Shown: piece by piece, positions 4,644 to 20,987 of the stretch
How positions within the stretch are numbered: position 1 is the stretch's first letter
Layout of the letters: each line of letters begins with the position of its first letter
DNA from: a virus
Length of the DNA stretch: 20,987 nt
IMG/VR virus record: IMGVR_UViG_3300037090_000130
Span: 1-20,987 of that record
Strand: one strand, 5' to 3'
Position numbers and translations under genes: made by a program
Notes under the pieces: generated by a model
Told to the model about the DNA's origin: nothing
Databases searched by the model: none
What the model saw: the letters and a program-made list of their open reading frames with translations, nothing else

Positions 4644-4987
4644 CACGCCTCCTCTCGTTTTGGAATCACCCCACCCCCACACCCGAGCGCCTGCGCAATC
4701 GTCCCAAGATCCCAATCTGCCGGCCGCCAGACGTGAACCTCGACTCCAGCCCGTAACAGGTCCCGGAGCCAATAGGTTTGCTCCAATGTCGTCACCCCAT
4801 TACGAGATTTCAGTTCCGCGACGATGAACCGCTCCCCCTTAACCATCGCCAGGTCAGGCCATCCCTTGTGCCCCTGCAACGCCGTCCGCCATCCCATTGC
4901 AGTCCGGGCCGGGCGAAAGTGGCACACGCGCCAGCCCGCAAACTTCGCCAGCTCCAGCACGGCGGTTAGGAGGTCGTCTTCGGTCAT
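4643..4987 (-). CDS. VRR-NUC domain nuclease
   Basis: A 114-aa protein of the VRR-NUC group of PD-(D/E)xK nucleases, found in phages as stand-alone Holliday-junction or structure-specific nucleases. The catalytic pattern is visible: GWPDL (42-46) supplies D45, AELKS (57-61) supplies E58 and K60, and EQTYWLRDLLRAGVEVHVWRP (69-89) is the typical following helix-strand with Q70. The length suits a single-domain member. It starts at ATG 4987, overlapping the previous stop as ATGA. It probably processes branched DNA made by ERF-dependent recombination. Confidence 0.85.
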   Translation of the reverse strand: MTEDDLLTAVLELAKFAGWRVCHFRPARTAMGWRTALQGHKGWPDLAMVKGERFIVAELKSRNGVTTLEQTYWLRDLLRAGVEVHVWRPADWDLGTIAQALGCGGGVIPKREEA

Positions 4988-5247
4988 TGCATCCTCACCC
5001 ACGCCACCACGGGGAACCCGATCGCCACGAGCCACAGGAGCCACCCCAGCCAGACGCGGATGGCACTCCTGGCCCAGATCGGCCCGTAATCGCCATGCCA
5101 GCCGGTAGCGATCCATGTTGGGCCGGGGCAGCTACGAGATTCCTTCAAGCTGGTCGCGGCCAGGAGGCGGGCAACGTGGATCTCACGCAGATAGGCGCTC
5201 AGTTTGTCGTGGCACTCTTGCCAGCCCCATTCGTCGCGGTGGCTCAT
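4984..5247 (-). CDS. small C-terminally anchored membrane protein (87 aa)
   Basis: An 87-aa protein with a soluble, His/Trp-rich N-terminal part (SHRDEWGWQECHDKLSAYLR) and one C-terminal transmembrane helix (about 66-83, VWLGWLLWLVAIGFPVVAW). I do not recognise a family. The start at 5247 follows GGAGGTCCCCCG and overlaps the upstream stop (ATGA). The much longer reading frame upstream is only an Arg-rich shadow of the Ala-rich repeats of the DUF7666-like gene. Confidence 0.65.
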   Translation of the reverse strand: MSHRDEWGWQECHDKLSAYLREIHVARLLAATSLKESRSCPGPTWIATGWHGDYGPIWARSAIRVWLGWLLWLVAIGFPVVAWVRMQ

Positions 5248-5861
5248 CGGGGGACCTCCTTGAATAGATCTTTCACCATCTGAGAGAATCTCTTTTTTTG
5301 GGCGTCCCGTGCGGCGTCCCGTGCGGCGTCCCCTGCGGCGGCCCCTGCGGCGTACCGTGTGGCGGCCCGTGCGGCGTCCCATGCGGCGTACCGTGCGTCG
5401 GCCCATGCGGAGGCCCATGCGGCGTACCGTGCGTCGGCCCATGCGGAGGCCCATGCGGCGGCCCCTGCGGCGGCCCGTGCGGCGGCCCGGAGACTCTCCT
5501 CTCCGGTTGTCAGATATTGCACGACGACCGGAGGCGCATCCCACAGTTTCACAACATCAAGCGCACAGGACCGCGCGAAGGACCAGAGCAGTGACGTTGC
5601 ATCTACCCGCGTCACAATCTTGCGACGTGTCGCCACGCACTTGTCGTCACCCTGGATAATCGTCCCACCCAGTTGGACCCGGCAGAGCGTCTCTCCGGGG
5701 GCATATGTCAGGGCATCGAATGGGTCTAGAGATCCGTGCAGTCCCCGCTCGCACATGATGACCGGGAGGGGACCGTCATACTCCAGCCAGACGCCGTCTG
5801 GGGGGATCGGCTGGCCATTGCGCAAGGTCTTGCCGGCAAAATGATACGCGCTAATTGTCAT
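5244..5861 (-). CDS. DUF7666-like protein with Ala/Trp-rich C-terminal repeats
   Basis: A 205-aa protein. The N-terminal part (1-125) resembles the phage DUF7666-type family: a CERGLHGSLDPFDALTYAPG block (37-56), LCRVQLGGTIIQGDDKCVAT (59-78), and a helical ALDVVKLWDAP section. The function of the family is unknown. From about 125 the chain is an alanine-rich repeat of AAWASAWADARY type, predicted as one long helix, ending in a Lys-rich tail (KKRFSQMVKDLFKEV). Such tails are common in this family and vary in copy number. The start has a strong AGGAGGGACG before ATG at 5861, overlapping the previous stop (ATGA). Confidence 0.68.
   Translation of the reverse strand: MTISAYHFAGKTLRNGQPIPPDGVWLEYDGPLPVIMCERGLHGSLDPFDALTYAPGETLCRVQLGGTIIQGDDKCVATRRKIVTRVDATSLLWSFARSCALDVVKLWDAPPVVVQYLTTGEESLRAAARAAAGAAAWASAWADARYAAWASAWADARYAAWDAARAATRYAAGAAAGDAARDAARDAQKKRFSQMVKDLFKEVPR
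5380..5451. repeat. two tandem 36-bp repeats in the DUF7666-like gene
   Basis: A 36-bp unit beginning catgcggcgtaccgtgcgtc occurs twice head to tail without a mismatch, coding for the 12-residue AAWASAWADARY. Degenerate Ala-codon repeats extend it to about 5303-5490. The exact identity suggests recent slippage or unequal recombination. Confidence 0.85.
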
Positions 5862-6130
5862 CGTCCCTCCTCTTTCGGGTATCTCGGATGGATTCTGAAA
5901 TATCCTTGCCACTTCGTAACCGTCTTGACCTTCAGGCTCTCCCCACTGGTCAGGTGCATAAAGATATTCGCCGACTCCCACAGAAATCCGATCCCGCTAC
6001 CGACCAACACGCACCAGATGAAGAGCGCCACGAAGAATCGGCGAAACCAGGAACGCTGTAACGTGGTGTGGGCTTTCTTCCACCCCTTGATCCAGGCCGC
6101 CGACTTCGCCAGAATCATGACGCCGGTCAC
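5858..6130 (-). CDS. small membrane protein (90 aa)
   Basis: One clear transmembrane segment (FFVALFIWCVLVGSGIGFLW) follows a basic, Trp-rich N-terminal region (KSAAWIKGWKKAHTTLQRSWFRR); a basic tail ends HPRYPKEEGR. I chose the GTG at 6130 because it overlaps the upstream stop as GTGA and has GGGGAAAG in front; an in-frame ATG at 6118 would shorten it by four residues. No family recognised; the positive-inside rule predicts a cytoplasmic N-terminus. Confidence 0.6.
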   Translation of the reverse strand: MTGVMILAKSAAWIKGWKKAHTTLQRSWFRRFFVALFIWCVLVGSGIGFLWESANIFMHLTSGESLKVKTVTKWQGYFRIHPRYPKEEGR

Positions 6131-7478: not shown

Positions 7479-7796
7479 TTACTTGGCAGGCACCGCTGGC
7501 ACCGCTGTTCCAGGAGCCGCAACCGAGGCCGGGACCGCGACATCATCCTTGGTGATGGTACATGAGGTTCCGCTGAGGGTCAACGCCGAGCCGACGCTGT
7601 TGACGCGGCCGAGTATCCCATCGAACTGGCTTGTCGTGGTCAGGCCGGGTTTGGTGACGTTGAAGCCGAGGCAGAAGTCGGCGTGGTTCCTGCCGATCGA
7701 GTCCACCATCCCGCCGATATCGGCGGCCTGCCAGCCGCTTCCCGCACAGCCGCCCAGCGCGAGACCGAGAACAAGGAGAACCAGAACAATTTTCAT
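7479..7796 (-). CDS. lipoprotein in the lysis cassette, possible outer-membrane spanin
   Basis: A 105-aa protein with a lipoprotein signal: MKIVLVLLVLGLALGGC, lipobox L14-G15-G16-C17, so the mature chain would start at a lipidated Cys17. A Ser/Thr-rich middle follows, then an Ala/Pro-rich tail (VPASVAAPGTAVPAVPAK). Two more cysteines lie at about 42 and 79. It follows the endolysin and holin-like genes, where an Rz1-type spanin is expected. It is longer than typical Rz1 proteins and only mildly Pro-rich, so spanin is a positional guess. The start has GGAGGGTAGGGCT before ATG. Confidence 0.6.
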   Translation of the reverse strand: MKIVLVLLVLGLALGGCAGSGWQAADIGGMVDSIGRNHADFCLGFNVTKPGLTTTSQFDGILGRVNSVGSALTLSGTSCTITKDDVAVPASVAAPGTAVPAVPAK

Positions 7797-7808: not shown

Positions 7809-7904
7809 CTACGTGATGTTTCCGTCAATGACGGACAAATCCGACGGCCACTCCATCGCGTGCGCGAGGATACCGTTCGGCACGACTGCTTGCAGGGGTG
7901 TCAT
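7809..7904 (-). CDS. 31-aa ORF coupled to the holin-like gene
   Basis: ATG at 7904 overlaps the holin-like stop (ATGA) and codes for 31 residues (MTPLQAVVPNGILAHAMEWP and on), ending TAG five bases into the spacer before the lipoprotein RBS. No family, signal or membrane helix is evident and it has no independent RBS. Its 3' end contains the TCCGTC palindrome. It could be a real micro-protein or only coupling translation onward. Confidence 0.35.
   Translation of the reverse strand: MTPLQAVVPNGILAHAMEWPSDLSVIDGNIT
7821..7835. repeat. 15-bp palindrome TCCGTC-AAT-GACGGA
   Basis: A perfect 6-bp stem with a 3-nt loop. The same stem with a different loop is at 325-339. On the minus strand it is followed by AACATCACGTAGGAGG, a leader layout like those of the acb2-like and 63-aa genes, here serving the lipoprotein gene. 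Confidence 0.55.
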
Positions 7905-8107
7905 GGCTTCGCCACCGGCGGAGGAGGCGGATCACCCCCATTCCTCAAATAGGCATCTACACCCTTCACGCCGGCCACGATGCTGCCACTGATAAGGATG
8001 AGCCATTGGAGCTTGTTCGGCCACGCCTGCAGGACACCCACGCTGGTCCCGAAGGCGATACAGAAGGCCGCGAGACCTTGCCACGAGATGAAAAAGGTTT
8101 GTTTCAT
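7901..8107 (-). CDS. holin-like small membrane protein
   Basis: A 68-aa protein with two hydrophobic segments (about 7-27, ISWQGLAAFCIAFGTSVGVL, and 39-57, LQWLILISGSIVAGVKGVD) and a hydrophilic tail with a run of five prolines. Size, two-helix topology and position next to the endolysin fit a class II holin, which would permeabilise the inner membrane to release the signal-less endolysin. It starts at ATG 8107 with GGAGGTGAGGCA in front, overlapping the endolysin stop. Confidence 0.6.
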   Translation of the reverse strand: MKQTFFISWQGLAAFCIAFGTSVGVLQAWPNKLQWLILISGSIVAGVKGVDAYLRNGGDPPPPPVAKP

Positions 8108-8517
8108 TGCCTCACCTCCTCGATCCATTCTCCGGTTTGCATCATGGCCGCCAAGTCCTCGGCCCGTTTCGGTGCGATGTGGCTATTAAGAATCTCTGCC
8201 GATGCCTGGAGATAGTCCTGCGCGACCATGGCGGCCCGGAACTTGACGAAGCCGCGGAAGGTCTCCAGCCCTAGGTTGAACAGCATATCGAGCACCACGG
8301 CCTGCCGTACGAGGTCCAGCGGGGCAAACCACGGGAAGGTGCGGGCGTCCTGCTGGGCGTCCGCGATGTCGCCGGCCAGCAGCATCCGGGATTCACTGAC
8401 GGTGATGCCCTTGTCGGTGAGGTTGTGGCCGACACCGATCGTCACCTTGCCCGCGGTGTCGGTGTAGGCCTTCAGCCGTTCGCCTTCGTGCAGGAGGAGC
8501 AGGTCGGTGATGGTCAT
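8104..8517 (-). CDS. endolysin, T4-type lysozyme (GH24)
   Basis: A 137-aa muramidase that cleaves the MurNAc-GlcNAc bond of peptidoglycan. The T4-lysozyme triad is present at the same numbering: E11 (HEGERLKAY), D20 (TDTAGKV) and T26 (VTIGVGHNLTDKG). A later helix LDMLFNLGLETFRGFVKF matches the family core. It is shorter than T4 lysozyme (164 aa), lacking part of the C-terminal lobe. No signal peptide or SAR helix is visible, so it should need a holin, and one follows directly. It starts at ATG 8517, overlapping the previous stop (ATGA). Confidence 0.92.
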   Translation of the reverse strand: MTITDLLLLHEGERLKAYTDTAGKVTIGVGHNLTDKGITVSESRMLLAGDIADAQQDARTFPWFAPLDLVRQAVVLDMLFNLGLETFRGFVKFRAAMVAQDYLQASAEILNSHIAPKRAEDLAAMMQTGEWIEEVRQ

Positions 8518-8765
8518 CCCTCCCCTCCCCCCTTGTCAATGTGCGCGTCTATGCGCTTCACAAGGTAGCCCACCGAGACCTCGATCCGATTCAACTGATG
8601 CTCGATAGCGTCCTTGTCCGCCTTCTCAGTCTTCACCTTTGCGAGCTCTTCCCTGATTTCCTTCGCCGTCTTCACGTCCGCTTTCGTCCTTTCCAGGTAG
8701 AGAAGGGCAAGCACAACCCCGATGACGACCGTGAGCTGCGGGATCAGGAAACTTGGCTCAGTCAT
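8514..8765 (-). CDS. TM plus coiled-coil protein of the lysis cassette, possible i-spanin
   Basis: An 83-aa protein: a transmembrane helix near the N-terminus (about 8-26, IPQLTVVIGVVLALLYLE) followed by a highly charged coiled coil (about 28-75, KADVKTAKEIREELAKVK and on) and a Gly-rich end. This is the layout of inner-membrane spanins (Rz), and it lies directly before the endolysin. Length is short for Rz, so another membrane-tethered coiled-coil role is possible. ATG at 8765 follows GGGGGC; the extension to 8831 is antisense shadow. Confidence 0.6.
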   Translation of the reverse strand: MTEPSFLIPQLTVVIGVVLALLYLERTKADVKTAKEIREELAKVKTEKADKDAIEHQLNRIEVSVGYLVKRIDAHIDKGGGEG

Positions 8766-8791
8766 GTAGCCCCCGTGGTGAAGAGGAGGTA

Positions 8792-10438
8792 CTAGGTAGT
8801 ATCCGCTGCCGTGCGGCTCACTTCGACCCACGCTCCAGTTTCATACTCAAACGTGATGAGCCTGCTATGGCCGGTGGCGGGAGTTGTAAACGCCCCGGCC
8901 AGGAGATATACCGTATCCCACGTAATCGCCCCCATCGCGCCGCCGCAGGTGTTCGCAATGCGAAACGTAATATGCTGGCCCACCGTGGGGTTCGTCGGAT
9001 TCGCCAGTGTGAAGGCGGTGTTGTTCGTCGCTACGAGGGTAAAGGTGTTCCCGGTGGAGGCATCGACGGGAATTGGACCGGGGCCGTAGGTCAGCGTTTG
9101 ATGTGCGCCAATAATCGCTCCGACTGCCTGGAGGACGGGCGCAACAAAGATGTTATTTCCTGTCGAGGGGTCAGGATAGGCGACCAGGACCGCGGATTGT
9201 AGGGTTGTATATCCAATCCGAGAGTTTAAGACCACGACGGATTCCATGCTCGCCGCCGCGACAATGTAGTAATGCCCGGCGCCTCCACCGGAAGAGGACA
9301 CCGGGGAACCCTGCCAGAGCAAGGACCCGCCCGTGAAGGTGGCACAGTACGGGGGACCAGTCGCTCCCCCGTCAAGGAACGTATTGCTGGACACTTCGGC
9401 CGTGGCGAAGCCTGACGCGCCCGTGGCCTCGATGTCGCTGTTGCCGTTGTTGCTTTCAAACCAAGAATCCCGCACGCTCAGGTAGGCCCCGAGGGAGGCG
9501 TCGGCTGCTACGTTCGTGGCTTTGATGACGCCTGTGCTCGTATTCCCAGCCGTGCCGTTGCCCGAAAACAACATGCCGTCGAATTTCCACCCCGTCGCGT
9601 GATCCACCAAGACGGCCCGTGTGGTGTTCGTGGCAAATTGCCCGCCGTAGAATTTCACGAGGTTCGGGCTGTAGCCCCCAGACGCCACGGCAGACACCCC
9701 CGTGGCGTTGTTCTGAATATAACAGTTCCAGCACGAGAAGTTCTCCGTCCCGTTGAGGGTCAACCCGGTTGCCGTCGAGCTATACCCGATCAGGACATCA
9801 GAGAGTGTGACCCCGTAGACTGCCGGGAGCACCAGGACATTGTTCCCGAGGCTGTTCCCGTGCAGCGTGAAGTTCTGCCAGCGCATGTTGATGGCGTATT
9901 GCGCCGCAGCCGTGACGGTGAGGAGTGCCCCAGTCGATCCGGTCTTTTGCATGATGCCCGAGAGGCCGACCCCCAGCCCCTCGATGTTGATAGGCTGATA
10001 GCTGCCGGCAAGCGCGATGGTGAGGTTCGTGGCGATACAATACCCGGCAGGGAGCCGCAAGGTTCCACCCGCCGCCACTGCCGCAATCGCGTTCGTGAGC
10101 GCCGTGGTATCATCGGTCGCGCTGTCACACTTCGCCCCGAACCACTTGGGGTTCACGAGGTCAAAGGTCGCGCTGAACCATTGGTTTGCATAGTAGACCC
10201 AGAGGCCACGGATGGTATCCGTGACGATGGCAAGCGTGCCGGCGGTGGGGGCAGCAGGGAGTGACGCATAGGCATACGCCGATGGACCCTTCCCATTGTT
10301 GAGATAGGTAAAGTTGTCATCCAGATATTGCAAAGGAATCGCCCCGGTCATCGGTCCGAAGGTATGCGGCATCTGGGCCGAGACGAGACCGGGGAGGAGG
10401 AGACACAGGCAGACGAGACCGAGCACGAGTCTTTTCAT
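8792..10438 (-). CDS. tailspike-like right-handed beta-helix protein with signal peptide
   Basis: A 548-aa protein. Residues 1-21 form a classical Sec signal (MKRLVLGLVCLCLLLPGLVSA, cut before Q22). From about 97, PKWFGAKCDSATDDTTALTNAI and TLRLPAGYCIA are the start of a pectate-lyase-3-type parallel beta-helix, used by tailspikes to bind or cleave surface polysaccharide. Asn/Gly-rich rungs follow to about 440. The C-terminal part (about 455-548) is a beta-rich domain, NTFTLVATNNTAFTLANPTN and ITFEYETGAWVEVSR, probably for trimerisation. Catalytic residues cannot be placed by eye. A Sec signal is unusual for a virion protein assembled in the cytoplasm. It starts at ATG 10438 with GGAG upstream. 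Confidence 0.75.
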   Translation of the reverse strand: MKRLVLGLVCLCLLLPGLVSAQMPHTFGPMTGAIPLQYLDDNFTYLNNGKGPSAYAYASLPAAPTAGTLAIVTDTIRGLWVYYANQWFSATFDLVNPKWFGAKCDSATDDTTALTNAIAAVAAGGTLRLPAGYCIATNLTIALAGSYQPINIEGLGVGLSGIMQKTGSTGALLTVTAAAQYAINMRWQNFTLHGNSLGNNVLVLPAVYGVTLSDVLIGYSSTATGLTLNGTENFSCWNCYIQNNATGVSAVASGGYSPNLVKFYGGQFATNTTRAVLVDHATGWKFDGMLFSGNGTAGNTSTGVIKATNVAADASLGAYLSVRDSWFESNNGNSDIEATGASGFATAEVSSNTFLDGGATGPPYCATFTGGSLLWQGSPVSSSGGGAGHYYIVAAASMESVVVLNSRIGYTTLQSAVLVAYPDPSTGNNIFVAPVLQAVGAIIGAHQTLTYGPGPIPVDASTGNTFTLVATNNTAFTLANPTNPTVGQHITFRIANTCGGAMGAITWDTVYLLAGAFTTPATGHSRLITFEYETGAWVEVSRTAADTT

Positions 10439-10439
10439 G

Positions 10440-11537
10440 TTAGCTCCATGGGAAGTCTTCTTTTACTCCGATCGCCCAGTTGGACGCCCACCCGCGATAC
10501 CGGCCGGATGCCAGCGGGCTGGGGTTGATGTTGCCGTCTTTCTGCGTGGGGGATTTCGAGGAAAAATCGAAATAGGACGGGGAGACACGCCGCAGGTTCG
10601 TGTGTTCTTTGACCACGTCCACGTACTGCGTCATCGGCAGTCGCGCGGCGCTCGTCGGGGGATTCCAGCGCGTCCAGTTTTCATAATACGCCTTGGAGAA
10701 AAAGCGCCGGTCGGTGTGTCGCCGGATGTCATCCACCAGCAGCGGGGGGACCCAGACCGGGGAACTCCCGGGGGCCTGGAATGAGGCGAACGGCTCGAAA
10801 TAGACCTTGCCACGCGGGCGTCGGTCAATCTGCGTCTTGTCCTCCGGGAGATACTGCGTCGTGATGGAGGATTCGGACATCACCGCCCAGGTGTAGCCAC
10901 TTGAGTCGTTGTAGTTAAAGTTTGGGATGATGGACCACGCATCGCCAGCGGTGCCGTTCGGTTTGCTGGAGACGACGACGCCCATGATGGAGGGGGTGAG
11001 GACTTGCTGCAATGCCGTAGTCGCCCAGGTGATGACAACGACGGAAAGGTTTGTTCCATTCCTAAAATAGGGTTGTGTTGCGTCAGCGGTCGCATAGCCA
11101 CTATTCCCAAATCCAGTAACAAACGAGGTAGCGTCTGAACTGGTTTTAATTTGCGTCACGCCGAGTGTGGCCGATCCGTTCAACGTACCCTTGTAGAGAC
11201 CCCCAAGCGTCAGGGGAAATCCGGTGCGGTACATCCCACCAGCTCCGGTCATCGTAAAGGTGGTCGCGTTCGTGATGGTGCAGTTGAAATTCGTCCATCC
11301 CGTCGTGAAATCTTCGCTATGGGCGGCGAGAGTATCCGCCGCCAGAGTCTCCCCCGACCCCGCTGTCAAGATATACGCGGACGCTGGCCGCCCAGACGAA
11401 TCCCACACGACCAGCTTTTTCCCGAGGTAGAGTCCAAGGTTTACGCCTTCCAGATCCGCAAAGGCGGTCCCGGCGACGAGCGAAAGATGGGTCTGAACTA
11501 GCGCGAGGTTTCCCGAGGCAATGAGGGTATCAGCCAT
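10440..11537 (-). CDS. virion-associated, tail-fibre-like protein
   Basis: A 365-aa protein I do not recognise precisely. The N-terminal region (SGNLALVQTHLSLVAGTAF, ASAYILTAGSGETLAADTLA) and the Ser/Thr/Asn-rich middle with beta-strand periodicity resemble a carbohydrate-binding or fibre domain. The C-terminal third is richer in Arg, Trp and Tyr (RRHTDRRFFSKAYYENWTRW). It lies directly before the tailspike, so it may link the spike to the tail. I chose ATG 11537 since GGGGA is correctly spaced before it; ATG at 11543 and the longer extension to 11603 lack good sites. It overlaps the methyltransferase stop by 8 nt. Confidence 0.62.
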   Translation of the reverse strand: MADTLIASGNLALVQTHLSLVAGTAFADLEGVNLGLYLGKKLVVWDSSGRPASAYILTAGSGETLAADTLAAHSEDFTTGWTNFNCTITNATTFTMTGAGGMYRTGFPLTLGGLYKGTLNGSATLGVTQIKTSSDATSFVTGFGNSGYATADATQPYFRNGTNLSVVVITWATTALQQVLTPSIMGVVVSSKPNGTAGDAWSIIPNFNYNDSSGYTWAVMSESSITTQYLPEDKTQIDRRPRGKVYFEPFASFQAPGSSPVWVPPLLVDDIRRHTDRRFFSKAYYENWTRWNPPTSAARLPMTQYVDVVKEHTNLRRVSPSYFDFSSKSPTQKDGNINPSPLASGRYRGWASNWAIGVKEDFPWS

Positions 11538-12144
11538 TGCCATTCCCCGGCGAGGCGGGCCACAGCGGATACGGGGGCCGCATGATCCACAACCCCCGCG
11601 CACACGGGAGATACAGCTTCGTGTAGGTCTCCGGGACCTCCTGATAGTGGTAGTGGTGGCTGTGGTAGGCGTCGTGCATCAGGATCACGCCGCGGGGCGA
11701 AAGGTGCGGGGAAAAGTTCGCTAGCTCCAGGTGCCGCTCGTTCCCGCCGTCGATGAAGAGGAGGTCAATCGCCTTGTTGAACTGCACTTCGCGCGCATCC
11801 CCGGAAATGAAGTCCACGAAGTCGAGTAGCCCGTTCTCCTGGATGAGCGGATAGGCCCGCTGCAGGAAGGGCGGATACTGCTCCACCGTCCAGACGTGGC
11901 CTATCTTGTTATCCTTGCAGCCCTGCGCCAATGCCGCCGTGCCGTACCCTAAGTGCGTGCCGGTCTCCACGATCACGTCCGGCTTGAGCAGAACGACCAG
12001 GCAGCGCAGGAAGTGCAAGACCTCTATCTCGCTACTCTGGTCATCCAGACAACACCAGCGCGTCGCATCCCCGCACGGATTGCGGATGTCGGAGGGATAC
12101 TCCGGTGTCACCGGGGCGAGCGTCTGAAAGGGCGGCTTGATCAT
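11530..12144 (-). CDS. class I SAM-dependent methyltransferase
   Basis: A 204-aa Rossmann-type methyltransferase. Motif I is VIVETGTHLGYGT (57-69), with an acidic residue and Gly-rich loop for S-adenosylmethionine; HVWTVEQY (83-90) supplies motif II; LLFIDGG (128-134) and VILMHDAYHSHHYHY (153-167) are the later strands, resembling the O-methyltransferase/CmcI-like group. The substrate is not evident. It overlaps the second glycosyltransferase as ATGA, so it may modify the same glycan, for example by capping a sugar. The His/Tyr-rich HSHHYHY stretch could bind metal. Confidence 0.75.
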   Translation of the reverse strand: MIKPPFQTLAPVTPEYPSDIRNPCGDATRWCCLDDQSSEIEVLHFLRCLVVLLKPDVIVETGTHLGYGTAALAQGCKDNKIGHVWTVEQYPPFLQRAYPLIQENGLLDFVDFISGDAREVQFNKAIDLLFIDGGNERHLELANFSPHLSPRGVILMHDAYHSHHYHYQEVPETYTKLYLPCARGLWIMRPPYPLWPASPGNGNG

Positions 12145-12875
12145 TTCGGCTCCGTCTGCCCGTCCGTCTCGACCAGGATATGCCGGGCGCCGCTGTCAGT
12201 CACGAACTCCACGCCATAGCCGGGCTTCGGCCAGACCTCCGCCACGACCATGTGGCCGATATGCCGGTCACAATCGCTGTAGAGCTTGTAGCCGGCCTCG
12301 AACACCTTGCGGGAAAAGTCCACGTCCTCCAGCGCGTAGCCCCGCTCCAGTTGCCCCGGCTCGAACCACGGATCGCCGATCTTCTCCAGCACGGGACGTT
12401 GGATCAACAGGCCGTTGCCCCCGAGCACGGTGGTCTCCAGGAGGCCGGTGGTCGGGATCTCCGCCCACGTCCGGTATTCCCAGTTGATTGTCTTGTCCTC
12501 GTTCCGCCACGTCCCTGACCCGTTCTTGAATTTGGTGCTGATCGGCGGAAAGGGCGTATGCCGGTTGACGCAGAGCGGGGAAATCACGTCCACCCGGCGC
12601 ATCAGCAGGCGAATCAGGGTGTCGGGCTGAAAGGTGTGGTCATCGTCCAGGAGGAAGACCCACTTGAACTTTTCATCCTTCATCATCTGCCGGATGCAGG
12701 CATTCCGGTTGGCCGCGCAATCGTAGGACGTGCTCTGAAGGCAGATAGAGCCTTCCGGCGCAAAAAGCGTCTCCAGGTTGCTCCAGAAGTCCCCAAACCG
12801 GGACAGTTCCCCCCGGATGACCGCAATGGCACCGGGTGGGAAGATGTACGGGTGCGTGCCGGTGACGAGGTTCAT
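12141..12875 (-). CDS. GT-A fold glycosyltransferase (copy 2)
   Basis: A 244-aa protein. KWVFLLDDDHTFQPDTLIRL (71-90) holds a DxD-type metal and nucleotide-sugar site (D77-D79) on a GT-A fold; YDCAANRNACIRQMM (51-65) and GGNGLLIQRPVLEKI are shared with the next gene upstream, and EDVDFSRKVFEAGYKL is the expected acceptor-side acidic motif. The two genes are clearly tandem paralogues. It starts at ATG 12875, overlapping the upstream paralogue (ATGA), and is followed by the methyltransferase with the same overlap. Sugar and acceptor are unknown; host surface glycan or virion glycosylation are both possible. Confidence 0.8.
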   Translation of the reverse strand: MNLVTGTHPYIFPPGAIAVIRGELSRFGDFWSNLETLFAPEGSICLQSTSYDCAANRNACIRQMMKDEKFKWVFLLDDDHTFQPDTLIRLLMRRVDVISPLCVNRHTPFPPISTKFKNGSGTWRNEDKTINWEYRTWAEIPTTGLLETTVLGGNGLLIQRPVLEKIGDPWFEPGQLERGYALEDVDFSRKVFEAGYKLYSDCDRHIGHMVVAEVWPKPGYGVEFVTDSGARHILVETDGQTEPK

Positions 12876-13570
12876 TTCGAATCCTCCATGGCGATCGGCA
12901 CGGTGAGCCGAGCCCGGGAGAGGTCAAAGCCGACTTGCAGCCCATAGCCGGGAACCGGCCACAAGCAGCAGGGGGTCATGTGGCCCACCTTGTTGTCCGA
13001 GTCAATCCACATATCCACGCCGGCCTGGAAGAGCTTGAAGGAGAAAAAGGTGTCCTCCCCGAGACGTCCGGGAAGCATCGCGCCGGGGTGATACCAGGGC
13101 TTCTCGATCTTCTCGAATACCGCGCGTTGAATGAGCGGTCCCGCCCCGCCGATGACCATGCTTTCCTGCAGACCGGTAGTCTGGACTTCCTGCCAGCAGC
13201 GGAAGCAGTTGCAATTCCACCCGCCATCCGGTCCCCGTTTGGCGGAGACCGGACGGAAGGGCGGATAGCGGGTGGTGCAGAGGGGCGCAACGACATCTAC
13301 GCGCCGGTCGAGCAGACGGAGAAGCAGATCCGCATCCCAGGAATGGTCATCGTCAATCAACCATCCCCACTTGTATTTCGGGTCAGCCAGCAGTTTCTCA
13401 ATGCCGAGGTTCCGGTTGGCGCAAATGTCCGCGCCACACGTCCACGCGAGCGAGCTTCCCATCGGGACGCGCATTTGGTTCAGGGACAGCGCAAAGTCTA
13501 CATACCTCGCCAAGTCCCCGGAGGTGACGATAATCACCCCCGGAGGGTGTGGCGATTGAACCTCCTGCAT
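12872..13570 (-). CDS. GT-A fold glycosyltransferase (copy 1)
   Basis: A 232-aa protein. KWGWLIDDDHSWDADLLLRL (67-86) carries the DxD-like site (D73-D75). The blocks ADICANRNLGIEKLL (47-61), RRVDVVAPLCTTRYPPF (88-104), GGAGPLIQRAVFEKI and GEDTFFSFKLFQAGVDMW match the downstream copy in order, showing tandem duplication followed by divergence. No membrane anchor or signal is seen, so it should act in the cytoplasm. The start has TAGGAGGCCGCC before ATG 13570. It sits among virion genes rather than in the early block. Confidence 0.8.
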   Translation of the reverse strand: MQEVQSPHPPGVIIVTSGDLARYVDFALSLNQMRVPMGSSLAWTCGADICANRNLGIEKLLADPKYKWGWLIDDDHSWDADLLLRLLDRRVDVVAPLCTTRYPPFRPVSAKRGPDGGWNCNCFRCWQEVQTTGLQESMVIGGAGPLIQRAVFEKIEKPWYHPGAMLPGRLGEDTFFSFKLFQAGVDMWIDSDNKVGHMTPCCLWPVPGYGLQVGFDLSRARLTVPIAMEDSK

Positions 13571-13579
13571 GGCGGCCTC

Positions 13580-14269
13580 CTAGCGGGTCATGAAAAAGAC
13601 CATGTTGACGGCCGTGGTCCCGTTGCTCCCTTGTCCGACCAGTCGGAAGCGGAGCCACGGAGCCGGGGTCGGGGTCAACAGCACCTCATGCGGTGCCGTG
13701 TCGGTGAGCACTGCCGCCGTCCCGCCGACGGTCGGGACGCAGTATTTTTCCGACACGTCAAACGGGGCCTGCAACATCTGTAAGGCCACGGCTGGCGTGC
13801 CACTCCAGGCCACACACTGAATCCAGCAGCCGAAGAAGATCCCGTTATACGCGACGGGAATCCCATATTGCCGCCCGGTGGCGGGGTTCAAACACCACGA
13901 ATCGACACTCGCGGTCCCCGTGACCAGCTCCGTCGAGAAGATTTGCCACGACTGGGCATACGCCGGAGCCCCCGGCAAGAACTGGGGCGGCGACGTAATC
14001 AAGTACGCCGGGTTGATCGCATAGGCGATGGTCCCCGCGTCCACCCGCCCCATGACAAACTCGGTGCCTTTCTGCCACTGCCACCGTTTCCAATGAGACC
14101 AGCGGGGAAGCGACATATCCGGGAGGCAGGGGAGCGACTGGAAGTCCTGGACCGGCCCGAAAAACGGGTCGTTACTCCAGGACCTCCAGTCCGCATACGC
14201 CGGGTGACGCCCGCGTCGGGCGAGGTCTTCTACCTGTTGGAAGCCAAGATCCGATGTACCACCAGTCAC
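13580..14269 (-). CDS. hypothetical virion-type protein (229 aa)
   Basis: No recognised family. The N-terminal third is aromatic-rich (Trp in YADWRSWSNDPFF and WSHWKRWQWQKGTEF); the rest is beta-type with small residues and closes GQGSNGTTAVNMVFFMTR. This C-terminal pattern resembles that of the 154-aa neighbour (VEAVSIVFDQV), as if both carry a similar jelly-roll or beta-sandwich fold. It starts at GTG 14269 with AAAGGAG and proper spacing. A capsid or tail accessory protein is the best guess from its position. Confidence 0.6.
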   Translation of the reverse strand: MTGGTSDLGFQQVEDLARRGRHPAYADWRSWSNDPFFGPVQDFQSLPCLPDMSLPRWSHWKRWQWQKGTEFVMGRVDAGTIAYAINPAYLITSPPQFLPGAPAYAQSWQIFSTELVTGTASVDSWCLNPATGRQYGIPVAYNGIFFGCWIQCVAWSGTPAVALQMLQAPFDVSEKYCVPTVGGTAAVLTDTAPHEVLLTPTPAPWLRFRLVGQGSNGTTAVNMVFFMTR

Positions 14270-14285
14270 GGCTGGCTCCTTTCAG

Positions 14286-14750
14286 CTAGACCTGGTCGAA
14301 GACGATGCTCACAGCCTCGACGCCCGTGCCGGTCGTCTGCCGCAGGCTGATGTTGTTCGTGGTGGCCGCGCCCAGGCAGTAGATTTCCTCGCCCGGAGCC
14401 GCCAGCCAGCGCACTACTCCGCCGTTGTTGTTGACCGGCAGATACAGCAGAACCACGCCCGCCGTCGGCTGGTTGGTCCAGGCCGCCGTGCTCAGGGTCA
14501 TGGCGGCGCCCGTGATGTTCGCGTTGACTGCCGGAGACGAGATGCTCATGGGGTTCAGGGTCATCGCCACGGCCGTGGTGCCCGTGCTGGTCCGCTGGAT
14601 GGCGATCACACCGACCGCCGAGGCGGTGCCCAGCCCACCCGCCAGCACGTCGATGACGTTGAAGTTCCCGGCCGCCGCGCCGATGAGGGCGATGTTGTCG
14701 TTGCCGGCTGACGGGGTGATGTTGTTCGCGCCTGCTCCGTACCGTGCCAC
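14286..14750 (-). CDS. hypothetical virion-type beta protein (154 aa)
   Basis: A 154-aa protein rich in Ala, Gly, Thr, Val and Asn with few charges, typical of phage decoration or fibre proteins. Alternating strands such as VGVIAIQRTSTGTTAVAMTL and VVLLYLPVNNNGGVVRWL are visible; C-terminal strand VEAVSIVFDQV. It starts at GTG 14750 after a strong AGGAGGAAGAGACA. No family recognised; a structural role is inferred from composition and from neighbours. Confidence 0.6.
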   Translation of the reverse strand: MARYGAGANNITPSAGNDNIALIGAAAGNFNVIDVLAGGLGTASAVGVIAIQRTSTGTTAVAMTLNPMSISSPAVNANITGAAMTLSTAAWTNQPTAGVVLLYLPVNNNGGVVRWLAAPGEEIYCLGAATTNNISLRQTTGTGVEAVSIVFDQV

Positions 14751-14768
14751 TGTCTCTTCCTCCTGCTC

Positions 14769-15050
14769 CTACCCGATGAGGAGCGCGTTGTGCCGCTCGC
14801 GTTGTGCCACTTTCTCACATTGCTCGTACCAGGAGCCGAGCCCCAGGTCGTGTGAGTGGACGCACTCGGCACGTTCACAAATAGGACCGCCACACTTCAT
14901 GCACCAGTTCCCCTCCCGCTGCTTCCGGCTGATCTTCAGTTGCCGCTGACAATGCCGACAGCTCACCAGGTCAAACTCCTCCAGGCCCCCGCCGTTGTTC
15001 CGATTGTCGATTGACAAGTAGCTGTGTGCTCCGAAGATCACCGATCCCAC
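14769..15050 (-). CDS. small zinc-binding protein (93 aa)
   Basis: Six cysteines in zinc-finger spacing: C31-x2-C34, C50-x2-C53, C58 and C63 (CRHCQRQL, CMKCGGPICERAEC), with H65 and H67 as further ligands. Between the pairs lies a basic stretch KISRKQREGN. The N-terminus GSVIFGAHSYLSID is hydrophobic and the C-terminus helical (YEQCEKVAQRERHN). I chose the GTG at 15050 because AAAGGAGGTGACGCG lies at the right distance; a longer ATG frame from 15122 would read through that RBS. Related small Cys-rich proteins occur among phage structural genes, function unknown. Confidence 0.68.
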   Translation of the reverse strand: MGSVIFGAHSYLSIDNRNNGGGLEEFDLVSCRHCQRQLKISRKQREGNWCMKCGGPICERAECVHSHDLGLGSWYEQCEKVAQRERHNALLIG

Positions 15051-15078
15051 CGCGTCACCTCCTTTCTGATAAGAGGTT

Positions 15079-15144
15079 TTACCGTTGCCCCCGCTTGCCC
15101 TTTCGCCCGCCGTGCTTTCCACCCTTCCCGCGCAGATCGGTCAT
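15079..15144 (-). CDS. 21-aa Lys/Arg/Gly-rich micro-ORF
   Basis: MTDLRGKGGKHGGRKGKRGQ and a final Arg. The ATG overlaps the previous stop (ATGA) and has AGAGGGGGACGAAA in front, a good RBS. Ten of 21 residues are Lys, Arg or His. Such a peptide would bind nucleic acid or DNA-rich capsid lumen if made; expression is not shown. Confidence 0.5.
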   Translation of the reverse strand: MTDLRGKGGKHGGRKGKRGQR

Positions 15145-15200
15145 TTTCGTCCCCCTCTGCGGATCTTCTTCTTGCGCTTGCTGATCCCCTTGGCTGGCAT
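15141..15200 (-). CDS. 19-aa Lys/Arg-rich micro-ORF
   Basis: MPAKGISKRKKKIRRGGRK. AAGGGGGACGATA precedes the ATG, which shares one base with the preceding TAA. Ten of 19 residues are basic. Its RBS, AGGGGGACGA, is almost the same string as the one of the next micro-ORF, suggesting that the pair arose by duplication. Confidence 0.5.
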   Translation of the reverse strand: MPAKGISKRKKKIRRGGRK

Positions 15201-15364
15201 TATCGTCCCCCTTTCCGCGTTCTTTTGACCCTACGGTAGCCCCCGCGCTTAGTCAAGCGTCCAGCGCGTTTCATGGACAGGGCCTCCGCCACGGCTTGCC
15301 GCTGCGGGACGCCCTCGTGGCGGAGAATCGAAATCTTCTTGGAAACCCTATCCCTTTTTGCCAC
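15200..15364 (-). CDS. 54-aa basic phage protein
   Basis: A GTG start at 15364 inside the end of the 74-aa gene, with GGAAGAAGC in front. The protein VAKRDRVSKKISILRHEGVP (1-20), QRQAVAEALSMKRAGRLTKR (21-40) and a basic tail resembles small phage proteins with a Q-x-QAVAxALS-xxRAG motif near packaging and head genes. Function is unknown. I prefer GTG over the in-frame ATG at 15439, which would lie wholly within the preceding gene. Confidence 0.62.
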   Translation of the reverse strand: MAKRDRVSKKISILRHEGVPQRQAVAEALSMKRAGRLTKRGGYRRVKRTRKGGR

Positions 15365-15572
15365 GCTTCTTCCGCCCCGACATATCGGTGGCCGCCTGGC
15401 CCCGGTCCAGGGGCAACGGCGGCGTGAACGAGTGGACAAACTTCATGGGCTGCGCAGAGACATCCCACGTCTTCCACGGGTTCTCCGTCCGCTGCCGGGG
15501 CCGGGAGATTCCCTCCTTGACCATCTTTTCTGCTGAACGAAGCCCGGGACCGTAGGTCTTGCCCATGCTCAT
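15348..15572 (-). CDS. 74-aa basic protein
   Basis: MSMGKTYGPGLRSAEKMVKE opens the chain; Pro-rich middle (SFTPPLPLDRG); end SGRKKRGKKG. No family recognised. It overlaps the previous stop by ATGA and the following 54-aa gene by 17 nt. Its polybasic tail matches the character of the three ORFs after it. Confidence 0.58.
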   Translation of the reverse strand: MSMGKTYGPGLRSAEKMVKEGISRPRQRTENPWKTWDVSAQPMKFVHSFTPPLPLDRGQAATDMSGRKKRGKKG

Positions 15573-15844
15573 TTCTCCTTGCTGCGCATCACGATTTGAG
15601 GGACGAATGTCACCGCCGCGAAACTGGTCGCGATCACCTCGCGGAGCCAGGTCGGATCATAGATTGCATACCCATAGAGGGCGATGGTGCCGAGCATCGC
15701 CAGCCAGAGGAGGCAGCGATCGGCCAGAACCTTCAGCATGACTTCGAGCACGTAGATCACGAAGGGCTTGTGTTTCTCCGCGTGAATCCGCTCCGCGTCC
15801 AAGAGTTCCGGGGGAATGGATGACATCGTACCGGGTCCAGCCAT
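15569..15844 (-). CDS. small membrane protein (91 aa), possibly two helices
   Basis: An N-terminal soluble region (SIPPELLDAERIHAEKHK) then two hydrophobic stretches: about 41-61 (ADRCLLWLAMLGTIALYGYA) and 68-85 (REVIATSFAAVTFVPQIV), ending MRSKEK. The size would suit a holin, but a better holin candidate sits beside the endolysin. It has AAGGAGAGCGCC before ATG 15844. Family not recognised. Confidence 0.62.
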   Translation of the reverse strand: MAGPGTMSSIPPELLDAERIHAEKHKPFVIYVLEVMLKVLADRCLLWLAMLGTIALYGYAIYDPTWLREVIATSFAAVTFVPQIVMRSKEK

Positions 15845-15855
15845 GGCGCTCTCCT

Positions 15856-16041
15856 TTAATCGGCCAGTTCGGCCCCTTGGCCCTCGGGTTCCCGCCGCTG
15901 CTTCACGGCAATCCAGCCCTTTGCTTCTTTCAAGACTTGCAAGTAGTCCAGGTCCGCCGAGGAGATAGACTTCTTCTTGAGCATCTCCATGAAGCCCGTC
16001 TCGATGAGGGATTCCAGGTCATCGTTACTGGGGTCCGGCAT
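15856..16041 (-). CDS. 61-aa protein resembling podovirus small terminase subunits
   Basis: MPDPSNDDLESLIETGFMEM (1-20), LKKKSISSADLDYLQVLKEA (21-40), KGWIAVKQRREPEGQGAELA. The pattern of an acidic start, LIETGFMEML, a basic turn, SSADL and a helix resembles the N-terminal part of short TerS proteins of T7-like phages (LLEKL-x-ATAADL). It is at the end of the internal-protein genes, compatible with T7-like order. The large terminase, expected next, is not found, so this is tentative. It overlaps the 570-aa gene by 17 nt; the longer frame to 16260 is a shadow. Confidence 0.45.
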   Translation of the reverse strand: MPDPSNDDLESLIETGFMEMLKKKSISSADLDYLQVLKEAKGWIAVKQRREPEGQGAELAD

Positions 16042-17737
16042 TGTCGCCTCGCAGGACATCGCTCGCCAGCTTGCCGAGCGGTGCTCCCATTTGTCCACCG
16101 ATTGCCGAAGCCCCCTTGGCGACGGTCGGCTGAAAACTCTTCTGGATGTAGCCCGGAGACATACGAAGCCCCCCCACGGCCTCAAGCCCCTGTGATCCGC
16201 CGGCCAAGAGCGCCCCCATGGCCCCGGCCTCCGCTGTCGGGATGCCAAGCGCCCGACCAATCAGGGCCGCCGCTGAGGCTCCGAGCGCGTAGCGTCCAGA
16301 GCCGAACTTCTGGCCGGGAATGCTGCGGCCGGTCGTGTCGGTGATTGGGATGATCTCCTCAAGGTCCTGCCGGATTGAATCGAGCAATCCCGGCTTGGCC
16401 TTCTCGACCGACTGCTCCCATTCCGGGTGCGTTGTCATCCACTGAATCACCTTTCCCGGGCTGGTCACGACAGACATACCCGTCCGGGATTGCCTCACGC
16501 CCGAACTTTTAATCACCTTCTCCAGATCTTGCCGGAGAAAGTTCAATCGGGCTTCCTGGATCGCGTCCGCGAATGCCTTGAAGGCCGGGTCCTTGGTCTT
16601 GGTGGCCGCCGCGGTCAGGTCCTCGTGGAGCCCCCCGAGAAGGTGCTTCCACACGCCCTCGGTCGTCGCGTCAGTCGCTTGGCTGATGCGCGTGTTGACT
16701 GACTTGATGATCCGGTCAATCTGCTCCGGGGACACCCCGCCCGCCTTCAGGCCCTTCACCTCGTTCGCGGCCTGCGTCAGCTCCTTCAACATCGGCTTGT
16801 CTTGCAAGGACTTGATCGGGTTGCCCTTGATGTGGCCCATGATCTCGTCTATCCGAGCGCCGAACTTATCCAGGCTCGCGTTGACCTCCGGGGGGCGGAC
16901 ATTCAGAAGCGTGGGAGCCGGGGGTGGCGGGGCTGCCTTCGGAAGGTTGGAGACTACCTGAGCAGCCTTGTCTGCGGCGATCGTCTCGCCCTGGCGCCCG
17001 ATGGTCTTGGCGATCCCCTTGTTGACAGCCGGGAGAACCTCGTCAAGGCTATATCCCTTCTGCACAAACTCCCCCAGGACCTTCTCACCGGCCCGGATGT
17101 GGTTGAATCCCCGTCCCGTGAGCCGGGAAATAGCATCTTCCACCGCTACCGGGTCCACAGGGTTCTTTGTCTTGGCGGCTGCGGCCGTAGCTCCCGCCTT
17201 GGGCGTCGGTGACTCCGGAACCGTCTTGGCGAGATTTCGGGCCTTCGTATAGGCTGCGTCCACGGAGTCATTCGACACGCCGAACCGCTCCGGTACCTTC
17301 TCCATCATCTCCGCGCCTGCGCCCATACGCTCGGCCGGAAGCGAGAGATATTTCCCCGGGGCCTTCTTGAGCCACTGGCCCACCCTGCCGAGAGCCGATC
17401 CTATCCCGGTAGTCGCCCCGGTCAAGGCCGCCTCGCCCGCGTCGGGCTTGCCCTGGAACAGTTGGCGGGTTGCCGTCCCCATCATGGCGCCAGGGATGCC
17501 ACCGCCGAGAGGCATGGCCGCCTCGCCTGCCGCGAAACCTACCGCCTCTGGGCCGCCGTAGTCCGTGAAGGCTTTCCCCATGCGAGAGAAAAACTCACGG
17601 CCTCCAGGGAAGAAGGAGCCGGTTTCCTTCGCGGGGGTAGACGGAGAAGCGGATTCCGACACCACCTCCGCGCCTGGTGGTAGGTCGGAATACACAACCT
17701 CAGCTCCCGCGGGGAGGTCGGAATACTTACTACTCAT
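16025..17737 (-). CDS. large internal/ejection-type virion protein (570 aa)
   Basis: The N-terminus carries an 11-residue tandem repeat YSDLPAGAEVV / YSDLPPGAEVV (5-26); short motifs of this kind are common at the start of phage DNA-transfer proteins. Next comes a Gly/Ala-rich hydrophobic part (about 55-125, EAVGFAAGEAAMPLGGGIPG), long helical regions (150-430), and near the C-terminus a hydrophobic stretch (ALGASAAALIGRALGIPTAE and GAMGALLAGGSQGL) that could insert in a membrane. No transglycosylase motif is seen. The start at 17737 overlaps the stop of the preceding gene. It matches the T7 gp16 position but is much shorter; role inferred. Confidence 0.6.
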   Translation of the reverse strand: MSSKYSDLPAGAEVVYSDLPPGAEVVSESASPSTPAKETGSFFPGGREFFSRMGKAFTDYGGPEAVGFAAGEAAMPLGGGIPGAMMGTATRQLFQGKPDAGEAALTGATTGIGSALGRVGQWLKKAPGKYLSLPAERMGAGAEMMEKVPERFGVSNDSVDAAYTKARNLAKTVPESPTPKAGATAAAAKTKNPVDPVAVEDAISRLTGRGFNHIRAGEKVLGEFVQKGYSLDEVLPAVNKGIAKTIGRQGETIAADKAAQVVSNLPKAAPPPPAPTLLNVRPPEVNASLDKFGARIDEIMGHIKGNPIKSLQDKPMLKELTQAANEVKGLKAGGVSPEQIDRIIKSVNTRISQATDATTEGVWKHLLGGLHEDLTAAATKTKDPAFKAFADAIQEARLNFLRQDLEKVIKSSGVRQSRTGMSVVTSPGKVIQWMTTHPEWEQSVEKAKPGLLDSIRQDLEEIIPITDTTGRSIPGQKFGSGRYALGASAAALIGRALGIPTAEAGAMGALLAGGSQGLEAVGGLRMSPGYIQKSFQPTVAKGASAIGGQMGAPLGKLASDVLRGDNAGPQ

Positions 17738-19316
17738 CCACCCATGCCCCGTTCTTCTTCACCTGAAACTTTTTCCCCACTTTAATGCGGGTCCCCTCGG
17801 GAGCGGGGGAACTTTCAGTAGACTTCCCGCCGCCCGTCTGTCCTCCGGCCGTCGTCTTCAACATTTCCCGTGCTTCTGCGATGTCGTCCTTGAGTCCCTT
17901 AATTCGAGAATCCATATCCTTCGAGAGAACGTTGTTGACTACCCCTTCAAACTGCCCCTGAGAAAGTGCCGTTGCTAGCACCTCTCTCGCCTCTCGGCGG
18001 GCCGTATCACTGCTCACGCCGGTTAAGCTGGTCGTGACTCTGGCCACTTCGTTTGCGGCCACAAGGGCGGCACTCTCGAACTCTGCGGCGGGGGAACTTC
18101 CACTCATGCGCTCCCCTGCAATGAGCGCCTTGTTGATGGCCGTGAAGTCAGAGCGCGGGACCGCCTTTGACTTCTGTACCGCAAGCTGGAGGTTCGCGCG
18201 CGCGGTCTTTTCAAACGGGGACACCTGCGCGTATTGCTGCTCCAGCTTGTTCAGCCGAACCGTGATCGCATGAAAGGCGGCCTTCTTCGTCGCAACGTCT
18301 TCGGGGGTGTTGCCGGGTTGCACCGAGAGTTGTGCGAGTCGCTTCAGGTATCTCTTTCTGAGGGGGTCCTTTCCCGACATCCCGAAGCTCGGATCTTTCC
18401 CGCCCGGCATCAAAGACTTTCGCGCAAGCGCATCAAGTTCCTCGTCGGTCATGGTATCCCCTGAACCACCTCCCCCTTCGCCCTTCTTCAGCATGCCCGC
18501 GTGATACTTTTCCCGCTCCTCAAGGTCTTCCTTGTGTTGCTTCTCCTTGTCTTTCGCCTGCTGCTCTCGAAAAGTCTGCATATCCTTGTGATTCTCATAC
18601 TGCATCCAGAGCGTGTCTCGGTGCGTTTGCAGCGCGTCGATGTGCTTCTGCCGGTCCTCCATGAATTTCAGGATAGAGTCTAATCCTTCCGCTTTGGAGG
18701 CGTCAGCGGCAATCTTGTCTTCAAACTCCGCCCCCGCCAAGGCGTAGGCTTGCCTCTTCATCTCAAAGCTGATCTTGGAGCTTTCCAGGATGGCCTTGTA
18801 GTGCTCCTGTTGCGACGTCGCGGTCTGGAGTACGTGATCCGTCGCCGCCTTCCACTGGTCCATCTCCCGCTGCACGCGGGCGTCATCCCCTTGCATCCAC
18901 CCCTTCATGGCCCCGTTCATGGCCGAGGAGGCGACGATCCCGCTCTTGCCGATCAACCCGCCGATCGGTCCCGCCAAGATGGAGAGCGCCTGGAGAAACT
19001 CCTTGATTGTGTCGGCCGGCTTGCCAGGCCCTTCAAGGAATGGGTGACGCTTCATGTCGGGAGGCTTGGGAAGATCCGGAGTCTCCGGGACCTGTGCGGC
19101 CGTCGCCTCTAGTTTCCCCATCGCTCCCTTGAGGGCGGGGACCGCCTCCGCCTTGGCTGCGCCCCGTGCCTCGATGTCCTCGGCCTGCTTGCGACCGACT
19201 GCCCGCCTCTCCTCCAGTACGGAGTCTTCCGCCTTCCGGGTATCCGGCGGCTCGCGCTGATCCTGCGTCTGCTGCGCGATGTCCGAGAGGTCTTGCGTAT
19301 CCGTCAAGACAGCCAT
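17730..19316 (-). CDS. coiled-coil internal virion-type protein (528 aa)
   Basis: The chain has a charged N-terminus (DTQDLSDIAQQTQDQREPP), an Ala/Gly-rich hydrophobic stretch at about 107-140 (FLQALSILAGPIGGLIGKSG, AMNGAMKGWMQGDDARV), then a long coiled coil (about 145-290, ending KEDLEEREKYHAGMLKKGEG), a Gly-rich break, and a helical C-terminal half. The block 'ALKGW-x-GD-x3-x-R-E-x-D-x-WK' recalls podovirus internal proteins. It starts at ATG 19316, next to the stop of the 428-aa gene, with GTGGGGAC in front. It probably acts with its two large neighbours in DNA ejection; that is inference. Confidence 0.6.
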   Translation of the reverse strand: MAVLTDTQDLSDIAQQTQDQREPPDTRKAEDSVLEERRAVGRKQAEDIEARGAAKAEAVPALKGAMGKLEATAAQVPETPDLPKPPDMKRHPFLEGPGKPADTIKEFLQALSILAGPIGGLIGKSGIVASSAMNGAMKGWMQGDDARVQREMDQWKAATDHVLQTATSQQEHYKAILESSKISFEMKRQAYALAGAEFEDKIAADASKAEGLDSILKFMEDRQKHIDALQTHRDTLWMQYENHKDMQTFREQQAKDKEKQHKEDLEEREKYHAGMLKKGEGGGGSGDTMTDEELDALARKSLMPGGKDPSFGMSGKDPLRKRYLKRLAQLSVQPGNTPEDVATKKAAFHAITVRLNKLEQQYAQVSPFEKTARANLQLAVQKSKAVPRSDFTAINKALIAGERMSGSSPAAEFESAALVAANEVARVTTSLTGVSSDTARREAREVLATALSQGQFEGVVNNVLSKDMDSRIKGLKDDIAEAREMLKTTAGGQTGGGKSTESSPAPEGTRIKVGKKFQVKKNGAWVDE

Positions 19317-20603: not shown

Positions 20604-20613
20604 CGGCCTCCCC

Positions 20614-20970
20614 TTATGTGATGAGTTTCCCTACCGCGACCGACTTGAAGTCGGTATTCACCTTCCATCCCATTTTCGTCAGTACGCGAAGGAGCTTTGA
20701 GTTTTCGATGGTGTGCGTGAGGAGCATCGCGCATCCATACGACTTCGCCATCGTCAAAGACGCTTTTGCCAACAGGATTGCCGCTTGCGGCTCCGCGTGA
20801 AACCAAATACCGATCATCGCCACCGGACCCCCATACGACATCCAACAGATTCCCCGTACCTTCTCATTTTCATCTACGCAAACCAGCGTAGTTTCGTTGT
20901 TCGGCCTCAATTTCCCCATGCGCCATCGGGGAGGCTCTAGCACATCACTGTCTCGTAAATGTCGCACCAT
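20614..20970 (-). CDS. GNAT-like acetyltransferase / T7 gp13-type protein
   Basis: A 118-aa protein. MVRHLRDSDVLEP looks like the first strand and helix of a GNAT fold; ETTLVCVDENEKVRGICWMS is the beta-hairpin; MIGIWFHAEPQAAILLAKAS and NSKLLRVLTKMGWK (the usual N-x7-L-x-x-x-GF/W motif) complete it. The acetyl-CoA loop (RxxGxG/A) is not recognisable, so it may be a non-catalytic structural member. GNAT-like proteins precede internal virion proteins in several podoviruses, as here. No RBS is seen before ATG 20970 and the frame is open to the window edge (TTG at 20973), so the start is uncertain. Confidence 0.55.
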   Translation of the reverse strand: MVRHLRDSDVLEPPRWRMGKLRPNNETTLVCVDENEKVRGICWMSYGGPVAMIGIWFHAEPQAAILLAKASLTMAKSYGCAMLLTHTIENSKLLRVLTKMGWKVNTDFKSVAVGKLIT

Positions 20971-20987
20971 CAAAGGCGGGGATGTCT

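Follow-up and report, generated by a model that had tools for sequence, protein, structure and literature searches.

Gene organization around the spike gene

The window, that is, the whole stretch of DNA that was analysed, is a virus record in full (20987 bases). On its minus strand, positions 8792..10438 form a CDS for a 548-aa tailspike-like beta-helix protein, as judged by reading of the open reading frame (ORF) and by profile matches; it is referred to here as the spike gene. The ORF is real and begins with MKRLVLGLVCLCLLLPGLVSAQMPHTF, as the preliminary description had claimed. The coordinates given there were also correct, but the strand was absent and is minus.

The upstream ORF on the same strand (10440..11603, minus; 387 aa in the ORF list) has its stop one base ahead of the spike start, and neither Pfam nor PHROG profiles gave a trustworthy family match for its product. 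Also upstream of the spike gene, window 11530-13570 contains a methyltransferase gene and two adjoining genes of the phrog_1574 family, one of which has weak glycosyltransferase matches. The genes of this region may be glycan modifiers.

Four genes follow the spike gene, all on the minus strand. The first, at 8514..8831 (ORF list, Pfam and PHROG scans), encodes 105 aa with a hydrophobic segment and is holin- or spanin-like by eye. The second, at 8104..8517, encodes an endolysin of the phage lysozyme family (PF00959 E-value: 8.8e-10, above cut-off; phrog_7 E-value: 3.4e-16). At 7901..8128 the ORF list has a small hydrophobic ORF, holin-like by eye, and at 7479..7796 there is a small lipoprotein-like ORF (MKIVLVLLVLGLALGGCAG) that is spanin-like by eye from its sequence and has no family match in Pfam or PHROG. 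The position of the spike gene directly before the lysis genes fits late expression.

A second contig of the same phage (L109) is 99.9% identical to window 13500-20987. It extends the phage beyond the window, with a major head protein gene further on, and stops short of the spike gene. With an internal virion protein as query, this contig was the only match. Two repetitive regions also lie in the window. Short repeats at 20349-20528, within a 428-aa gene (19317-20603), encode GAGVAEGV-like units and appear as off-diagonal matches between contigs, and positions 4984-5981 are a low-complexity stretch with long ORFs on either strand.

Predicted signal peptide

Residues 1-21 of the spike protein (MKRLVLGLVCLCLLLPGLVSA, followed by QMPHTF; 10376..10438, minus) are predicted from the sequence, a signal rule and chance estimates to be a Sec signal peptide with cleavage at VSA|Q. 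KR is followed by a hydrophobic core and then by VSA|Q, and the features of a type I signal are thus present (positive n-region, hydrophobic core, small residues with Val at -3 and Ala at -1). Signal peptidase sites are judged by the -3,-1 rule, which was applied by eye to place the cut at VSA|Q; the home-made signal rule cuts at residue 17. The leader has KR rather than RR before the hydrophobic core, and the twin arginine of a Tat signal is absent.

The home-made rule accepts 7 of 8 well-known exported controls (it misses beta-lactamase) and rejects LacI. In the window it is passed by 8 of 378 ATG frames of at least 25 aa. With ATG, GTG or TTG starts, frames of at least 40 aa and a Shine-Dalgarno of at least 4 bases, six window starts pass, including those of the spike gene and of the lipoprotein-like ORF at 7796. 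The spike start (ATG at 10438) lies one base past the TAA of the upstream ORF and has the Shine-Dalgarno GGAG (10444..10447, minus) with a 5-base spacer, which supports translation of the leader. The Sec-type signal suggested in the preliminary description is therefore borne out by its anatomy, by GGAG at M1 and by passage of the home-made rule.

N-terminal segment and beta-helix body

Motif scan and phmmer show that residues 22-48 (QMPHTFGPMTGAIPLQYLDDNFTYLNN; 10295..10375, minus), which contain TFxxxxGxIPLxYLDxNF, match the N-terminus of phage tail proteins. The spike thus has one of the features by which tailspikes are recognized, an N-terminal segment common to phage tail proteins, and the earlier statement that it lacks an obvious tail-attachment head domain was wrong. 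Two scans of viral contigs with the motif, the match starting at TF or IPL according to the pattern used, yielded 117 distinct proteins among the matches listed (11 matches with fewer than 100 aa after the motif were left out). A start with a Shine-Dalgarno of at least 4 bases lies 5-22 residues ahead of the matched motif in 91 of these 117 listed proteins. By the home-made rule, none of the 117 listed has a signal ahead of the motif, as the only one that passes the rule (L292) has its cut inside the motif. Tail proteins with this segment begin at it, whereas in the spike a Sec signal comes before it.

Ten segment proteins, hand-picked mostly for a beta-helix body, all match PHROG tail or virion families, the matches coming mainly through the remainder of the protein. 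Tail proteins with xxxYTFxxxxGxIPLxxLDxNF (L082, L301 and L303) combine the segment of residues 22-48 with a beta-helix body, a combination that is predicted for the spike as well. The phmmer alignments of the spike to L333, L082, L311, L259 and L014 begin within residues 21-23 of the spike and residues 3-6 of the target, so that the signal ends where a tail protein normally begins. Judged by these alignments, the spike signal is an added module. In bacterial genomes the motif occurs in 27 stretches, mostly by chance; one of them (L136/L137) is a real phage-like spike, and it has no signal.

Pfam and PHROG matches to the body begin at residues 92-96. Among PHROG families, those for tail proteins and tailspikes match the body from residue 92 onward (best E-value: 7.4e-8), and PF12708 matches with an E-value of 4.4e-5 (23.8 bits, below the cut-off of 27). 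A right-handed beta-helix is predicted from profiles, model and Foldseek at about residues 96-440 (9119..10153, minus), confidently only to about residue 240. Taken as a whole, the AlphaFold model, built from an alignment of 12 rows, is weak (mean pLDDT 53). Its first helix coils are fair, with pLDDT mostly 70-87 at residues 101-240, and pLDDT is below 50 at residues 338-455. The best PDB match of this weak model in Foldseek is CBA120 TSP2 (E-value: 3.6e-7, low TM-score). The description of the protein as a tailspike-like beta-helix is supported by the profiles (PF12708 below cut-off) and by this low-confidence model. No Pfam match to the P22 Head_binding domain (PF09008) was found in the protein. 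Residues 445-543 (8810..9106, minus) form a C-terminal module common to other phage proteins (matches in L106, L107 and L108), and L108 holds it twice, one copy shortly after a Sec signal. The spike protein is probably sugar-binding.

Sec signals on other phage beta-helix proteins

No close relatives of the spike protein were found; a scan of viral contigs gave 4 distant loci and the phage collection none. Among seven relatives found by sequence, a signal is seen by eye in L003, L004 and L108 and is not seen in L002, L005, L106 and L107. A scan with the beta-helix core motif alone returned 57 contigs with 48 distinct judgeable proteins. By the home-made rule, five of the 48 have a Sec signal (L054, L055, L058, L086 and L096), and L068, which is cut by the end of its locus, apparently has one by eye. 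Other ORFs of the same contigs have such a signal in 10 of 245 cases (Fisher p=0.08), so enrichment on beta-helix genes is not proven; these surveys of phage spikes are small, biased samples. Some of the signal-bearing other ORFs (one in L050, 6533-7714; one in L096, 3340-4341; three in L099, 1036-4710) are clustered with the beta-helix gene, and another (L059 6233-7121) lies about 4 kb from it.

The clearest case is L086, in which the signal directly precedes the Pfam Head_binding domain of the P22 tailspike (64 bits, cut-off 24), followed by the helix core motif. Its 90%-identical relative L365 retains the signal, with differences in 2 of 24 codons, one of them silent. The neighbours of L054 (tape measure, central tail fibre J), L004 (terminase and portal) and L055 (major head protein) are phage genes for the head, the tail, lysis or packaging. 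In searches of isolated phages for Sec-type spikes, L055 or its N-terminus gave no match as query, and L108 and L004 gave weak partial matches. Export signals thus recur on other phage spikes, a fact invisible to the preliminary description.

Tat-like leaders in P22-like tailspikes and bacteria

The Head_binding motif gave 76 distinct N-termini among the matches listed, a sample rich in near-identical P22-type sequences. In none of these 76 is a Sec signal accompanied by a good Shine-Dalgarno. Eight of the 76 listed have, ahead of the ordinary start and in frame with it, a Tat-like leader, the leaders being called with the commonly known Tat motif, and the two signal-rule matches in the sample are Tat-like. 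Such leaders are also present in isolated E. coli phages. The loci with Tat-like leaders are L170, L182, L196, L202, L244, L251, L255, L142 and L197, with isolate loci L377-L380.

The leaders of L202 and of the isolate APC_JM3.2 are separated by 8 synonymous and 0 nonsynonymous changes (p=1.5e-5). L196 and L202 differ by 11 synonymous and 5 nonsynonymous changes (p=2e-4), and L170 and L182 by 12.8 and 16.2, respectively (p=0.02). Four pairs were tested (p 1.5e-5, 2e-4, 0.005 and 0.02), which are not independent, and the L244 leader is too divergent to be informative. Leader change is mostly synonymous in two P22-like lineages, in which the leader is conserved at the protein level, and this excess makes it very probable that at least one lineage translates the leader. 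The Shine-Dalgarno of these genes is good at the ordinary internal start and poor at the upstream one, making two protein forms likely; given the good internal Shine-Dalgarno, it may be the short form that goes into the virion.

A full-length leader match was found in 6 of the 25 phage records listed from a total of 159. In four of the six, the annotated start is the Tat-like one (JEP4, Bas106 and Louie) or the inner one (APC_JM3.2), and in P22 itself the tblastn match extends upstream of the annotated start. This difference in start choice between database records of similar spikes is a practical problem.

Head_binding also occurs in six bacterial genomes (398 and 394 searched; three genomes found in both). 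Four of five N-termini are Tat-like (L371, L372, L373 and L375) and L374 is ordinary; L376 was left out. Three of the four Tat-like proteins adjoin genes that are glycosyltransferase-like by eye. By their sequences, all four appear to be similar to WceF of Pantoea stewartii, a protein from a polysaccharide cluster that is described as having a tailspike fold and a Tat signal (PMC7949094).

Proposed model and alternatives

The preliminary description had raised export or envelope localisation, and this is the natural reading of a Sec-type signal on a tailspike-like protein. We also prefer it to the alternatives, since the signal has all its parts, is preceded by a Shine-Dalgarno of its own and stops at the tail-protein segment. 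We consider it fairly probable that the spike is made as a Sec preprotein, exported and cleaved, and acts on envelope glycans, with possible later docking on virions. The steps would be as follows. The gene product, a Sec preprotein, would be a beta-helix protein of tailspike type that binds or cleaves glycans. Its signal of 21 residues would direct passage across the inner membrane and be cut after VSA, and the mature spike would start one residue before the ATG equivalent to the usual start of segment-bearing tail proteins. The spike would then fold and trimerise, probably in the periplasm, and late in infection it would act on glycans of the envelope. Lysis would release it together with the virions, to which mature spike may also add afterwards, as the tail-protein segment has been kept. 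P22 tailspikes can reportedly join finished heads outside cells. From the sequence features, we infer export and cleavage; the fold and the example of WceF suggest the role in the envelope, and the enzyme activity, the target and post-lysis docking are speculative. Tail proteins are regarded as made and assembled in the cytoplasm, and the predicted Sec signal argues against this for the spike.

A sub-case of the export reading is that the spike is an enzyme that is only secreted, either a depolymerase or one that trims glycans; it would never be in the virion and would be periplasmic or extracellular like WceF. The signal and the adjacency to lysis genes agree with this, as do WceF, the other Tat-signal Head_binding proteins of bacterial genomes and the similar published case of gp40 of Xanthomonas phage PBR31 (PMC10975493). 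Against it, the spike retains a tail-protein N-terminal segment and L086 the whole P22 Head_binding domain. We regard this sub-case as quite possible without being the expected one.

It is unlikely that the real start is M23 (ATG at 10372, the next in frame), which would leave the signal-like leader untranslated and the protein an ordinary cytoplasmic tailspike. Phage relatives mostly begin 5 residues before TF, close to M23 at 3 residues before it, and the 117 listed relatives with the segment are uniformly signal-free. M23, however, has no Shine-Dalgarno match, whereas M1 has GGAG and lies one base past the upstream stop. A Shine-Dalgarno of at least 4 bases is usual in this phage, being present at 9 of 11 other gene starts (the exceptions are a 528-aa gene with GGA only and a 570-aa gene with no match). 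An open 66-base leader with a signal is also improbable by chance: among random ATG leaders of this length, an open signal-passing frame occurs in 0.94% with the composition of the spike leader (1.3% of open ones) and in 0.26% with that of the window (0.47% of open ones).

The preliminary description also allowed for a non-cleaved anchor. A short hydrophobic N-terminus could hold the protein in the inner membrane, for example to exclude other phages, but the core is short and interrupted by PG and the canonical VSA|Q stands immediately ahead of the tail-protein segment, making an uncleaved anchor improbable and a cleaved signal the likelier form. That the spike gene belongs to a host or entered the contig by contamination is very improbable even though exported beta-helix proteins are common in bacteria, since phage genes surround it, the endolysin gene is close by, and the 99.9% identical second contig bears the major head protein gene.

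A wider proposal can be made, which we put forward tentatively and regard as rather doubtful: a minority among tailed phages of unrelated lineages may export spikes by Sec or Tat, use them on the envelope and fit them to virions after lysis, and a two-start gene of the P22-like kind may give both an exported and a cytoplasmic spike. Export signals on tailspikes are unexpected under standard models of phage assembly. If the proposal is true, signals placed right before virion-attachment segments would mean that spikes are made for two places or that virions are finished outside the cytoplasm. Since P22-like cases occur in isolated phages of E. coli, the idea is open to immediate testing.

Comparison with known systems

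Among the matches listed from the full-text literature, mostly outside subscription papers, no beta-helix tailspike of a tailed phage was found to be reported with a Sec or Tat signal. In one paper, absence of a signal peptide is counted as support for the phage origin of a protein (PMC6199706). Exported phage proteins of other kinds are described. Lys44 of fOg44 is a Sec-exported endolysin with a real signal peptide (PMC6116005); it resembles the window spike in that both are phage-encoded and begin with a signal sequence, and differs in being a lytic enzyme, not a tailspike. PBR31 gp40, encoded near lysis genes, is an esterase that resembles tail hydrolases and bears a signal peptide (PMC10975493). 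Unlike the window spike, it is an SGNH esterase, and a beta-helix is not described in the available portion of that report.

Among bacterial proteins, the MAT fibres of Bdellovibrio are phage-adhesin-like and have signal peptides (PMC10769870); they differ from the window spike in being bacterial and serving predation. WceF is an exported tailspike-like beta-helix protein with an N-terminal export signal, as the window spike is predicted to be, but it is encoded by a bacterial gene in a polysaccharide cluster and has a Tat instead of a Sec signal.

The tailspikes of CBA120 (TSP2), Sf6 and P22 have in common with the window spike the predicted beta-helix fold, the profile matches and a gene position near lysis genes. 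To our knowledge, none of the three has an export signal. The window spike differs from them in that a Sec signal precedes its tail-protein segment.
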